Shown here one piece after another: positions 14,693-22,799 of a DNA stretch of 64,000 nucleotides (within the stretch, counting starts at the first letter, position 1; the number at the start of each line of letters is the position of its first letter). The stretch is from Sycon ciliatum (Eukaryota > Porifera > Calcarea > Leucosolenida > Sycettidae), in assembly GCF_964019385.1 (NCBI RefSeq), contig NC_088655.1, positions 11,007,706 through 11,071,705 on the forward strand, given 5' to 3'. Below the pieces are notes generated by a model. That model was given only the letters and a program-made list of their open reading frames with translations. It ran no database searches and was not told the origin of the DNA. Position numbers and translations under genes: made by a program.

Positions 14693-15040
14693 TTAAGGTG
14701 GCTCCTACCCCTCGGGTCCAATTTTTCAGTTTGAAACGTGGCTACAAACGATTGTACTTTGTTCCGTAGGATATCTAGTGTGCGGAGACACGTTTTTATC
14801 AAGTTCTACCCGCCGGTTTCACTCGGGGGAGGGGTCAAACATAGCATACTCGCAATTGCCAAATTAGGCTAAAAAATACAGAAAAAACCAATTTTTGACC
14901 ATAGCGATCGTGGTTACCCCGTCTTTCTTGATGTGCAACATCGGGACAGTCATATACTTGCAATATACTAACATAAGCATTACAAGTAGGTAGAATCCTG
15001 CCCGAGAGGTGCCTTTTTCTCTTTTCGGAATAGTACCATT

Positions 15041-16330
15041 TCAGCGAACGCGTCCTGAATATAAGCCCCGCCTACAAGTATTTGACACTGGACTTGGTCT
15101 GCATTTGATGGCTATGCCATTAGAACACAATAGTGGCTCGGTGTAGCAAGTTTGAGCAGGTTCTACCGAAGCTAACTCATGAAATAAAACTTTTAAGTTT
15201 CCGAATGTAAGGCCACCCTTTGTTAATTCATTGTTTAACGTCCTTTTTTTCGCGAAAAGGTACGCGGGAGGGCGAAAAAATAACAAAAGCCCATTCCAAA
15301 AACTGGAAACCCCAATCAAACATTTTGACCAGTAAAGCATGTGATTATATACAATATTTCTGGGTCTAACGGCACTTGCAGGCATAGAACAACACTCTTT
15401 GATGGTACATTGGAGCACATGCCTGATGAATCCAACAAAACAGGTACATAGCATGGAGGTAGCATGTCATGAATTCATTACATCTGGATTTTTACTAGGA
15501 CACACACCATACGATATTTAAAAGACAACAAAAAAAAGAAAAATAACACAAGACAAAGGCATGCCCGGGAGGCAAGATTATAAGTTTAAGGTCATGATCG
15601 GCACCCTGTGAAACTACACAATCATGTATTTACAACTTCGCATATTATTGGCACTACTACTTTCTTTTTTTTTTTTCCGGTCGGAGGCAAAAAGGTACGC
15701 GGGCGCGGACGTTAAACAACGAAAAAAGAAAGGGTGGCCTAACCGAAATTGCATGGATAAGCACATTGCATTGAGTTCATCGCCCCAAGATATGAACCAC
15801 CAACACTCACATATAGCAGACAATAGCTTGTAGTTACTCGATTGAGCTCTCATTAGAACATGATAGGATAGTGTTGAACAATTTTGAGCGGATTCAACCG
15901 GATCTAACTCTTCAAATAGAGCTTGAAAGTGTCGAAATTGTATCATAATGAAGAATCGCAATGCATTCCAGAGTGCGTTTCCAATCAAATCGCACGTATG
16001 ACAGACATTTATCTTACATAATCGTTTCTGTGTAATCACAACTCAGTATTATTATTATACTTCAATGGCTTTGTTCACAGCAGTAAGAACCTAAGCTAAC
16101 TAAGAAAAATAAGAGTATTAGCCACAGCAATTCGATGAAACATACTAGAATAATGTCTGCATACAGGAGCAGGAATGACTTGGAGCTTAGTAAGCCTTAG
16201 TCTTGATTTAGCTATCATCAAACGCAGAGGCATTGCAATCAAGAAACCATATATAATATCTGGAGTAGATCTACGGAAAGGAATACCTACAGAGTAGGCA
16301 CAATGTATCGCCATAGTAAAAGGCTTGAAA
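15041..16330 (-). other. Transposon 3' region with two related open segments
   Basis: Two minus-strand open stretches (15454-15041 and 16039-15614) resemble each other over a short piece (LVLFHEL-like and ALFEELDP-like segments followed by a Cys). Both contain the nucleotide motif AAAAGGTACGCGGG. They lie inside the TTAA-bounded element, downstream of the transposase stop. They may be subterminal repeats or remnants of a second product; I recognise no domain. Confidence 0.4.
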
Positions 16331-16391
16331 ACACGTAGCAGCTGTCATTACCTGTACGTGCCCATGCTGTTGTCATGGTCCTCCGGACACT

Positions 16392-19300: not shown

Positions 19301-22300
19301 ACTTGGTTCTTTCATTGGACAAGTCACGACCATACGGCAAGCTCTTGTGCTTGTAGTTTGCAGGATCTTTGGAATATGCGCACCAGTCTCCACAATCCTT
19401 ATGATCACCTGTGCAAGGCGTACAAAGAGGTTCAAGCGCAATTCATGCTTTTAATACCTATTTGGAGGCAGATTTCAGAATGTTGATTCAAGTATGTTAT
19501 ACTACAGCATGTCTGCACTTGAACATCACAGCCTATTGGACATTTTATTTTTCAGCTTGCATGAGTTTTAAGTAATGGCATGATTCAGGTGAGGTGTTTC
19601 TATCCATACCATAGAGATGTGGAACGGTTGCCATCAAGGACGCTTTCAAAGATGGGGCATCATTCTTTGACTGGTGCACGGCGAACATGAAGCATTTCTG
19701 AACACTCTTGATGACCATATCCGACATTTCCTTGTGGCCCTGTTGCTTCAGCTTGTAGAGTGCGTTACCTACATATTCATAAGGACAGAACCATGGTGGA
19801 GTTTTTCATACTTCGGAAGTAATAATGATAATGACAACACTGGCAATACAAATATACAAATACTATACTCTCAACAACACGAGTATCATACCACCAATAG
19901 GCTGGCGTGCCACAGTAGAACTAGTAATTGCACAGCATTACGTTTTGCATTGACATCAATACTAAGTTAATCTTGCTACTTCGAAGTAAAGTACTAATTT
20001 CACCATCAAGACAACTTATGTTGGGTTAGCACTTACCAAGATTCTTTTTTACATGGTTCAAGTCTGAGCTCTTCGATATATTTTCAAACACTTCTGTCCG
20101 CAAACGCTTTATGGCTGACGAGTCGTCATCTCCCACCATAACAGCCACGTTCACACCAGAATTCTTCAAGAAGTTGCCAATGCCCACAGCTACAGAACCC
20201 TCCATGCTCTTTGCGGAACCGGAATGGGTTTTCTTGCAATCATGAGGAGGAACAGCTTTGCGGCGGCGTTCAGCATTTAAACAAATGGCGCAACCCTTTG
20301 AGCGAGTACCATAAGCTATAATTAGGCCCGTCTTGGCACCAATGGCATGACCAACACCTGAAGACATAAAGTGTACAAACAAACACACAACAATATGCAC
20401 ACTAAATCAACAACAGCAACAACAACGTCCACTAGCAAGAGCAGTTTGGAAGAACACATACGTATAGTACAGGATTATTACTAAATTTTAGTGCCGGGCT
20501 TCACAGTGGAGTATTGTTGACAATACTAATGTTAATCAATGTGCCAAATTCCCCTCTGCCAGAGTGGACTGCCTATGCAGCCAGCTGCCACAAGAAGAGG
20601 GCTACACAAATTTTGCCTGCAATAGCACACTGTCTACTTACCAGTGGCACGTCCTCGCTTCTGCCATCCCATGTCATAACTCATCACAATGTCTTCACTG
20701 CCAGATTGGGCTTTCTCCTTTGATGCAGAATCTTTGCAACTTGAAGCAGCAACACTCTCTGTTATAGGTCCAATGGATTTCTCGTGGTTTCGCAGACACT
20801 TTTCACTAGCTACTGGAATATTCAGTGTTGCCATCAAGTTGTTGACGTGTGTTGCGCCAATACCTGCGTGGTCCATAGCTGAACACAAAGTATGAGAAGT
20901 AGATCCCACAATCAGTCGGTCGAACATAATGATGCTTGTCCATCCTAGAGGGACACACTTATGCCCCCCCCCCCCTCTCCTCCTCCTCCTCCTCTTCTCA
21001 CGTCTGATTATAATTATACGCATTCCCGCGGCAGCGTCAACCAAGCAGTCCTGCTTGACTGATCCACACGTTTGCTTATGCTGGACATTGAAACAGAGCG
21101 GATGTAGATATCTCCTACATGTAGAGAATGTGGCTCTACAAAACCAACGTCTGCTACGCACACAATACAGTCATCACAAATTATACCAATCCGAAGATAC
21201 TAGTATGCAGTGTACAGCAGAATCACTCACAGTGTCACTGATCTGACACAATAAGTGGGATTTATGAGGGGGCATGCAGGTTCCCAATCCAAATGCACGA
21301 TAGCACACGTACACACACACACACACCTATATAAATGCTCAGCTGCACACGTATGAACGACGCGGCATGCGGACACATGTACACTCATACATCGGTTATC
21401 CGGAGCCTGGAGTTATGGGTACTTCACTGAGCTTTACTGGGCACCCTTTGGGCGTCTTTCAGTGGAAATATTACTACTCTTTTTGTCACTTTTTGTGAAA
21501 ATAGTGACGTCATATGCCATATCTATGGCCTTCCCCCTTCAAAATGTATAATGATTCGGAGTTACGGACATTTCAAAGTTACGGGCAGCGTCCAGTCCTG
21601 GACCGCCCGGGAAAAGTTGGTATGAGTGTGAGTACATCTACCCAGCCGGCGCCCGTGCATGTTCTGTATTTTGGTCATTGGCCTCTTATCATATAATTTG
21701 TATGAATTACAAGTCAATCGATACTTGTAAATAGATGAAAGTGCACGCATGCACGCGCACACATACACAGGTGGACGCATGCATGTCCCTCTCATGGATT
21801 GCATGTCTAAAGCGTGCAATGGTGTATGGTGAAGCACTATTATTGCAGGAACAGGATTGATGTCGGACTCACCTAAGGCAAGTTTCGTGTTCACATCATA
21901 GCTCCTGCGATTTCCAGACTTGCCGGCATGCGTTTTCGAGGTCTGTACCTGGTTACGGACACCACATGCACCGCACTTCACCTCCAGCACTGACGCATAC
22001 CCATTTCTGCGTTCAGCCACGCAGTGGATTAGCTTCAGTGCTGTGTGGCAAGCATAACATCCTCTTTCCAAACGAGTCCCAAGAAGTCGAAACTCGACGA
22101 TCCTGTATTGCAATACGAAATTTGATTACAAGATCCAAGACACAATGACTACCTCGACTATGTCTTGAATCATGTCAAGTTGCACCACTATTCTACCTCC
22201 GTCCTTCCAGAATTGTAGAGTCAACAAAAAGTTCGACCTCGCTGCGAGCTGCAGGCGGAACACAGGATTCTCCTGTGGCTGCTGGTACGTCAGCTGTTTC

Positions 22301-22540
22301 GCAGCACGCCGGGGGTTGGGTATCGACCTCAGGCAAACCCGGGGCCTGCATCGATAGGGGCAGCCCGGGCTGAGGCCAGTGGCAGTGATGGAGGCTCTCT
22401 TGCGCTGTTTGTCTTCGTCGCTCTGCTCCGCCATGATTTACGGCGAGTGATCGCGGATTTCTGGCAGACCTTTCCACGATACCTGGCGCTGAAGCGGCTT
22501 GACATGCCCATTCCAGAGCTAGGGAGCAGCCACTGCACAC
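16392..22540 (-). CDS. Mutator-like (DDE) transposase fused to DEDDh exonuclease, eight exons, one in-frame TAG
   Basis: Predicted exons in transcript order: 22540-22197, 22102-21873, 20878-20642, 20357-20037, 19768-19610, 19408-19278, 18178-17831, 17645-16392. All junctions are GT-AG and every phase is consistent (2,1,1,1,1,0,0). Total 1008 codons. Residues 130-161 hold a CxxC...CxxC zinc-ribbon pair (C130, C133, C158, C161). From about 115 to 590 the sequence follows the Mutator-like transposase domain seen in many invertebrate proteins (Pfam PF20700 from memory), with a likely DDE triad: Asp260 in SYDMGW, Asp347/348 in VGDDDS, Glu493 in ANESFNN. The C-terminal part is a DEDDh exonuclease of TREX/PML-exon type: Asp635 and Glu637 in FFDLEST, Asp733 in HNLLKFD, His792 and Asp797 in HNAIGD. 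Codon 716 (17270-17268) is TAG, where CAG is expected; it lies between Exo I and Exo II. If real, the product stops at 715 residues with a dead exonuclease. The first exon start (Met at 22540) is the least certain part. Confidence 0.87.
16500..16640 (-). repeat. 48-bp coding minisatellite in the exonuclease C-terminal tail
   Basis: Two to three copies of a 48-bp unit encode a 16-residue Thr/Ser/Ala/Pro/Val repeat (ATPSATVSAAPSSTVT pattern), between the exonuclease core and a conserved-looking end (LALYRRRKAEGYDLP). It is likely a flexible linker. Confidence 0.85.
17268..17270 (-). other. In-frame TAG inside the exonuclease domain
   Basis: The reading frame on both sides is continuous, homologous and in the same frame (17645-17271 and 17267-16392). 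No short intron fits. A single C-to-T change from CAG, a sequencing error, or stop-codon readthrough would explain it. Confidence 0.9.
18195..18926. repeat. Very long (CA)n microsatellite inside transposase intron 6
   Basis: About 470 bp of uninterrupted CA (18199-18665), followed by CA interrupted by ATACGGTTCATA-type blocks to 18926. On the coding strand it is (TG)n and ends only about 20 bp before the 3' splice site of the seventh exon (AG at 18180-18179). The translated Cys/Val and Thr/His runs are repeat artefacts. Confidence 0.98.
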
Positions 22541-22799
22541 TTCGTGCCTTGCTGTACGAGTCCCTCGCCGAGCGCTACGCTATCGCCTTCAGGAAACAGG
22601 ATCTACGAAAAGGAAACAGCAAGACGGTAGCTACTACAAAGTCACCTTCAAAAATCAAACTAGCTTCGCACTGTTCGCAGTCCGCGGACTCCGCGCGCTT
22701 GTGCTGACGTTTTGAAGTATTTCTGGAAAAAAAGGAAAAAATCGATGTTTTTGAAACGATGCGTGCGCAGAGGGTAGGAGCCAGCCACCTTAAGGCTAA

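Follow-up and report, generated by a model that had tools for sequence, protein, structure and literature searches.

A probable KolobokD-lineage transposon in Sycon ciliatum with one gene for a transposase, a DEDDh exonuclease and a PML_C domain

We analysed a window of 64,000 nt from the calcareous sponge Sycon ciliatum (contig NC_088655.1, positions 11,007,706 to 11,071,705 of the forward strand), i.e. the whole stretch of DNA to which the positions below refer. It contains a unit of ~8.1 kb that is flanked by TTAA duplications, with an element body at 14697-22789 and a gene on the minus strand. With a probability of about 0.92, this unit is a dead Kolobok transposon of the KolobokD lineage, in which a single gene is predicted to encode a transposase, an exonuclease, and a PML_C domain. 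A preliminary description of the same DNA had placed the element at 14693-22793, which is correct once both TTAA copies are counted.

A DNA search of the whole 538-Mb assembly revealed a near full-length copy 2 (locus L009, pieces 89-96% identical) and a fragmentary copy 3 (L010, pieces 97% and 94% identical, without ends). Copy 2 has TTAA at both ends, as anticipated for further copies of such an element, whereas its right terminus is altered.

Gene structure, ends and placement among Kolobok transposons

The gene consists of eight exons with GT..AG borders, and the frame is kept across all seven junctions, as had been described; the intron before exon 8 is in phase 0. The following features were assigned, the terminal inverted repeats being abbreviated TIRs:

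14693..14696, left TTAA target-site duplication (single TTAA in four unoccupied host-repeat copies)
14697..14710, plus strand, left TIR GGTGGCTCCTACCC, identical in copy 2
15207..15742, nested ~535-bp repeat with 37-nt inverted arms, outside the gene (gap in copy 2)
16392..17645, minus strand, exon 8: EGTQY motif, DEDDh exonuclease, PML_C, variable tail, in-frame TAG (profiles, motifs)
17268..17270, minus strand, in-frame TAG, codon 653, common to L010 (spliced frame, DNA comparison)
17831..18178, minus strand, exon 7: catalytic E430 (NESFN), C-terminal basic region (motif positions)
19278..19408, minus strand, exon 6 (splice reading)
19610..19768, minus strand, exon 5 (splice reading)
20037..20357, minus strand, exon 4: CCHC knuckle, second catalytic D (GDDDSS), DxxH (DLNH) (motif positions)
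20642..20878, minus strand, exon 3: first catalytic D197 (YDMGW) (motif positions)
21873..22102, minus strand, exon 2: zinc ribbon (read from its cysteines), start of the PF20700 match (profile match)
22197..22351, minus strand, exon 1 from the first in-frame ATG, a putative start (splice reading)
22772..22789, minus strand, right TIR, inward GGTGGCTGGCTCCTACCC, with a 4-bp GGCT repeat (comparison of both ends)
22790..22793, right TTAA target-site duplication (empty-site comparison)

The proposed profile search was carried out with the spliced protein, and both the transposase and the exonuclease profiles scored over their cut-offs. The PF20700 transposase domain covers residues 51-377 (E-value 2.4e-77; residues are counted from the first in-frame ATG), and exon 8 matches PML_C (PF25244, 1.4e-14), Exu_RNase_H_like (1.7e-12), and RNase_T (1.3e-7). 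The region of the transposase triad comprises D197, GDDD (284-286), DLNH (306-309, between the second D and the E), and E430. A CCHC knuckle (C230, C233, H246, and C248) follows the first catalytic D, and a second zinc finger (DHKDCGDWC, 369-377) follows the DxxH.

The five catalytic residues of the exonuclease are all present in the DNA of the window copy (D572, E574, D670, H729, and D734), but the reading frame is interrupted by the TAG at codon 653 (17270-17268), which sits between E574 and D670, i.e. between exonuclease motifs I and II, so that no whole enzyme can be made from this copy without readthrough. This TAG had been missed, and the intact protein of 1007 residues that had been described is not encoded: the frame from the ATG has 945 codons, including the TAG and the final stop. 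The residue numbers then given (the D635 series) equal the D572 series plus 63, which a start at GTG 22540 would fit.

The two ends are inverted repeats, in that the right end read inward, GGTGGCTGGCTCCTACCC, equals the left end, GGTGGCTCCTACCC, plus the 4-bp GGCT repeat. An ungapped TTAA/TIR scan of the window, copy 2, L041, and L042 found a pair in only the last of these four; the 4-bp indel in the window TIR and the altered right end of copy 2 were both settled by eye. When the flanks of the window element were joined with one TTAA, they aligned unbroken, with 91-94% identity, to L033, L051, L048, L016, L031, and L009 (L002 overlaps L009 among the empty-site loci; the six compared sites are paralogous copies of a host repeat). 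The junction carries a single TTAA in the first four of these and a diverged TATA in L031 and L009. The matches extend over just 7 to 21 bases on the left side, where the host repeat seems to begin, and over 67 to 150 bases on the right. The single TTAA in unoccupied host-repeat copies is direct evidence for insertion into TTAA with duplication, and together with the TIRs it bears out the previously claimed target-site duplication and inverted ends.

Three features place the unit among the Kolobok transposons, in agreement with the earlier designation as a Kolobok-like element with a DDE-type transposase. The 4-bp TTAA duplication is seen at the empty sites, at both ends of copy 2, and in a separate family C; the termini are of the 5′-RR..YY-3′ type (GG...CC); and the DDE triad has a C/DxxH between the second D and the E. 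KolobokD was named in 2022 for elements of molluscs, arthropods, and cnidarians with a DEDDh exonuclease, the transposase having a CCHC finger after the first D, the C/DxxH, and a second zinc finger (PMC9587614, main text). The Sycon element is like KolobokD as reported there in its TTAA, its RR..YY ends, and its DDE transposase with a CCHC finger, and it also has the zinc finger after the C/DxxH. The published exonuclease is of the DEDDh type and similar to exuperantia and TREX, as is that of the element, which is broken by the TAG in the window copy. Therefore, the combination of transposase and exonuclease, which had been regarded as outside the standard picture, is not new. Compared with the main text of PMC9587614, the additional features are PML_C, the Plex9/PML affinity, the EGTxY junction, and a family bearing an OTU domain. 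KolobokE, KolobokP, and KolobokH also have a Kolobok transposase and a downstream accessory nuclease or helicase, which are of other kinds (PMC9587614, main text). In a literature search, the name KolobokD was met solely in this paper.

The joining of transposase and exonuclease, which had been proposed before, was upheld by the structure of exon 8 and by a related family that lacks the intron at this point. Exon 8 opens with EGTQY, which is the EGTxY motif of the transposase's own C-terminus. In the Kolobok proteins of four other loci of the Sycon genome (L045, L046, L050, and L052), EGxxY is followed by the stop after five residues, and the ~1 kb past that stop gave no exonuclease match. An alignment with L045, L046, and L050 shows that in families A, B, and G the motif is internal and stands ahead of the exonuclease. 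The motif thus marks the natural end of the transposase and also opens exon 8, which argues that the exonuclease was appended there within one exon. Family B (L041, C11) has an unbroken intronless frame of 477 codons, which runs from the last ~60 residues of the transposase through the exonuclease into PML_C. From these sequences, we judge the fusion to be genuine.

As further evidence on the fusion, we determined how often the two parts are neighbours in the genome. Among 129 transposase matches, 86 weak ones (25-29% identity, E-value 7e-10 or weaker), mostly of an intronless class with 600-700 codons, were left out, and the remaining 43 represent 22 loci. From 137 exonuclease matches, 34 (28 loci) were kept, namely those that span the exonuclease part or lie in a locus with such a match; 101 of the 103 matches left out start at query residue 143 or later, and C5:8804704 (a locus already counted) and C7:17609803 (from residue 135, mainly PML_C) were also left out. 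At 14 of the 22 transposase loci, an exonuclease follows on the same strand, no more than 2 kb downstream, and a separate search added a 15th, C4:11733581. The 14 co-linear loci are not independent, as the window element and copy 2 are one family and five loci on C3 look alike. Chance open reading frames were rejected on account of the E-values and the co-linearity.

Affinity of the exonuclease and origin of PML exon 9

The best matches of the window exonuclease in the PDB were 9l8b (3.1e-29), 9mrd (3.7e-23), 9mrc (1.3e-22), and 9l85 (6e-20), chains that are titled exodeoxyribonuclease III and contain the exonuclease domain only (189-196 residues). Exu (1.1e-7) and TREX2 (0.0026) matched more weakly. 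According to the consulted part of PMC12934764, 9MRC is zebrafish Plex9.1; the Plex9-type label is extended to the other three chains because 9mrd is nearly identical to 9mrc and shares 55% identity with 9l8b and 74% with 9l85. In the reciprocal search of the genome with 9l8b, copy 3 (110 bits, 40% identity) and then the window element (105 bits, 39%) headed the matches. Within the PDB, the nearest non-sibling of 9l8b was PolC (39 bits), followed by TREX2 (23) and Exu (16). By these scores, the exonuclease is closest, among solved structures, to the Plex9-type (PML-like) enzymes and not to TREX. In the former label "TREX/PML-like", the PML side is thus far stronger, whereas the TREX side is weak, and capture of a TREX gene was rejected. 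A single-sequence structure prediction of exon 8 was set aside (mean pLDDT 39.7). The PML_C stretch alone gave nothing useful against the PDB (best 0.67), which means that the PML-1 module is missing from the searched PDB or too diverged.

TREX1 and TREX2 are not known to have a PML_C domain, nor is Exuperantia known to have a transposase. The TREX enzymes have the DEDDh 3′-5′ exonuclease fold in common with the element, although the match is much weaker. Exuperantia (5L7Z/5L80) contains a pseudo-exonuclease and a SAM-like domain, similar to the pair of the element, but is not catalytic (PMC12934764, consulted part). A DEDD-type fold is common to the element, zebrafish Plex9.1, and PML-1, and in PML-1 a SAM-like domain comes after it at the C-terminus. 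In PML-I, the exonuclease-like region is for the most part encoded by exon 9, together with the C-terminal part (PMC11602975, consulted part), which is also the arrangement of window exon 8. Unlike the element, PML-1 no longer has the catalytic residues, and its fusion partner is a RING/B-box protein instead of a transposase. Among the relatives with a nuclease fold, only PML-1 and Exuperantia are listed with a SAM-like part in the consulted text of the PXL preprint. From its place after the exonuclease, the PML_C of the element may correspond to the SAM-like bundle of PML-1 (PMC12934764).

Because exonuclease and PML_C are located in one exon of the element, the domain pair of PML exon 9 exists here as a transposon module; the transposon enzyme and PML exon 9 share both domains, in order, within one exon. 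We tentatively suggest, at slightly less than even odds, that the PML exon 9 module and Plex9 derive from the terminal exon of a KolobokD element that was captured by a TRIM gene, and that the module acted in the transposon as an active, end-processing 3′-5′ exonuclease. A transfer from transposon to PML is plausible on three grounds: one exon carries both domains in either case, diverse lineages of this kind occur within a single genome, and KolobokD has been reported across animal phyla. The shared exon offers a testable origin for the PML exon 9 module; if the suggestion is true, the hallmark of the PML-I tumour-suppressor isoform would be a domesticated part of a transposon. The word PML is absent from the main text of PMC9587614, and in our literature search, Kolobok and PML appeared together just in a review, with one mention each in the part consulted. 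A link between PML exon 9 and transposons was not found in print in this limited search, which did not include the key PML/Plex9 paper (gkad152).

The reverse direction, in which KolobokD took its exonuclease from a PML/Plex9-like host gene, concerns the origin and not the anatomy of the element, and we consider it rather unlikely. It is compatible with the fact that other DEDDh enzymes are host genes, and with a tree of 11 exonuclease domains that lacks a supported position of Plex9 within KolobokD. In this tree, the three Plex9-type chains group together (ultrafast bootstrap 84, inner pair 100) and fall with PolC and Exu, on long branches and with low support, so that a nesting of Plex9 in KolobokD is neither supported nor rejected. 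The genome of Sycon contains six diverged lineages with exonuclease and PML_C, five of them with a transposase nearby, which argues against acquisition from a host. PML exon 9 and Plex9 are not known from outside the jawed vertebrates. KolobokD, in contrast, is reported from cnidarians, arthropods, and molluscs (PMC9587614, main text).

Proposed role of the exonuclease and decay of the window copy

The predicted protein would be composed of an N-terminal zinc ribbon, a DDE transposase with the inserted CCHC knuckle, a DEDDh 3′-5′ exonuclease, and PML_C. The transposase would excise the element and insert it into TTAA. The exonuclease, kept in the same complex and steered to DNA by PML_C, could act on free 3′ DNA ends from excision or insertion and trim or resect the donor ends, the donor gap, or unproductive intermediates. 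We infer the nuclease activity, the substrate, and the role from the sequence, and end trimming during transposition has about an even chance of being the role. For KolobokD, degradation of DNA intermediates from the 3′ end has been proposed (PMC9587614, main text). The several diverged families in one genome provide material for testing the role of the exonuclease in cut-and-paste transposition.

Alternatively, exonuclease and PML_C might act on other nucleic acids, either by degrading the DNA of competitors or by countering host sensing. This appears unlikely, as the fusion to a transposase argues for transposon ends as the substrate. It would fit the Plex9-type exonucleases as closest solved relatives and the restriction of L1 by TREX1 and PML-like exonucleases; Plex9 itself is said to restrict L1, according to the abstract of a 2023 paper. 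It would also fit the binding of G-rich nucleic acid by the module of human PML-1 (PMC12934764, consulted part).

It is very improbable that the exonuclease domain is decaying baggage without a function, even though the TAG is common to the window copy and L010, and no recent constraint is apparent between the window copy and copy 2. The D, E, D, H, and D catalytic positions are kept in an alignment of all six exonuclease lineages (A, B, C, D, F, and G), and for families B, C, and F the exonuclease matches are free of stops. The exonuclease alignment of families A to D has 51 invariant columns. Between families A and B, pN, pS, and their quotient (proportions of nonsynonymous and synonymous differences) are 0.44, 0.76, and 0.58 for exon 8 (405 codons) and 0.28, 0.78, and 0.36 for the transposase part (216 codons). 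The pN values below pS are compatible with long-term constraint, with the reservation that pS is saturated.

The window element is a dead copy. It differs from copy 2 by 3.7, 3.6, and 4.4% at codon positions 1, 2, and 3, respectively (886 ungapped codons), and by 6.5% outside the exons (260 of 4006 aligned sites). Copy 2 has frameshifts, one stop, and a deletion that removed part of exon 2. The even distribution over the codon positions gives no sign of constraint since the two copies split, and therefore both look like relics.

Several of these observations weigh against the reading as a KolobokD transposon with a single gene for all three parts, namely the stop codon inside the exonuclease, the missing constraint since the split of the window copy and copy 2, and the saturation of pS between families A and B. 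To these must be added the TAA directly upstream of the 477-codon frame of family B, which means that this copy is broken elsewhere. Furthermore, no exonuclease was detected nearby at 7 of the 22 transposase loci (with the 15th co-location counted), and no transposase match was present within the tested distance at 14 of the 28 exonuclease loci; therefore, transposase and exonuclease are not always together. From these solitary exonuclease loci and from the intron at 17646-17830 between exons 7 and 8, it could be argued that the exonuclease belongs to a host gene, either adjacent or captured, and that the join of eight exons is an artefact of crossing a boundary. This is extremely improbable, as exon 8 itself begins with the tail motif of the transposase, is enclosed by the TTAA duplications, and is matched by the fourteen co-linear loci (several of one family), and as family B has no intron at the border.

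Related families and further observations in the genome and the window

Family C (L042, C2:14716000-14725000) is an element of its own, ~7.9 kb long and bounded by TTAA. It has GGTGGCTC ends like the window element, with the TIRs GGTGGCTCGCGCCTATTTC/GGTGGCTCACGCCTATTTC, and encodes transposase, exonuclease, and PML_C, which adds to the evidence for the fusion. At L042:2156-3439, an OTU-like cysteine protease domain (PF02338, 6.5e-10) precedes PF20700 (5.4e-8) in the same frame. On this evidence, family C appears to carry, between its TTAA sites, a Kolobok transposase fused with a deubiquitinase-like domain. Family F (C2:33498209-33500566) also has transposase, exonuclease, and PML_C. The PF25244 domain was found in families A, B, C, D, and F, and at the family G locus C11:10020198-10020332 with 30.7 bits, over the cut-off.

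The genome contains at least 150 scored PML_C matches among 208 candidates, the matches listed exceeding the curated cut-off. Judging from match position and frame length, most of them look like one high-copy family, of which 23 loci were compared (L039 and 22 others, i.e. L016-L040 without L018 and L032). The L039-like elements are ~2.6 kb long; their right ends have TTAA in 14 of 17 cases, and TTAA is found on both sides in three of the six with both ends seen. The zinc-ribbon part of the window protein is also matched by 13 of the 23 loci, and by eye, their PML_C closely resembles that of family F. The small elements may be internally deleted passengers of an F-like element. This high-copy TTAA family retains the coding ends, i.e. 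PML_C and often the zinc ribbon, in short frames of mostly 102-116 codons. KP acts as a repressor of the P element, and by analogy, the short frames are candidate repressors.

At L043:888-5105 (C8, minus strand), an unbroken frame of 1406 codons ends in exonuclease and PML_C. Its catalytic residues are intact, and the 6.5 kb examined gave no match to the transposase; the frame is possibly a domesticated host gene. A search of the genome with the PF20700 profile revealed dozens of intronless Kolobok transposases with a 628-codon frame and equal scores, which suggests another recently active Kolobok family.

The nested repeat at 15207-15742 has dozens of copies with 97-99% identity across the genome and appears to be a young nonautonomous family. 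Intron 6 contains a long CA-rich repeat (about 18199-18926), which is much shorter in copy 2. Repeats in exon 8 (about 16510-16640) encode a Ser/Thr/Ala-rich tail; a stretch of 24 bp is missing there from copy 2, and one from copy 3 as well. Elsewhere in the window, the adjoining frames at 9148-9606 and 9702-10100 have more than 100 identical residues in common, and we take them for a local tandem duplication. On the minus strand, the frame at 1592-2236 presumably resembles an RBBP9-type hydrolase, and that at 61261-61893 presumably the end of a Ty3/gypsy integrase.

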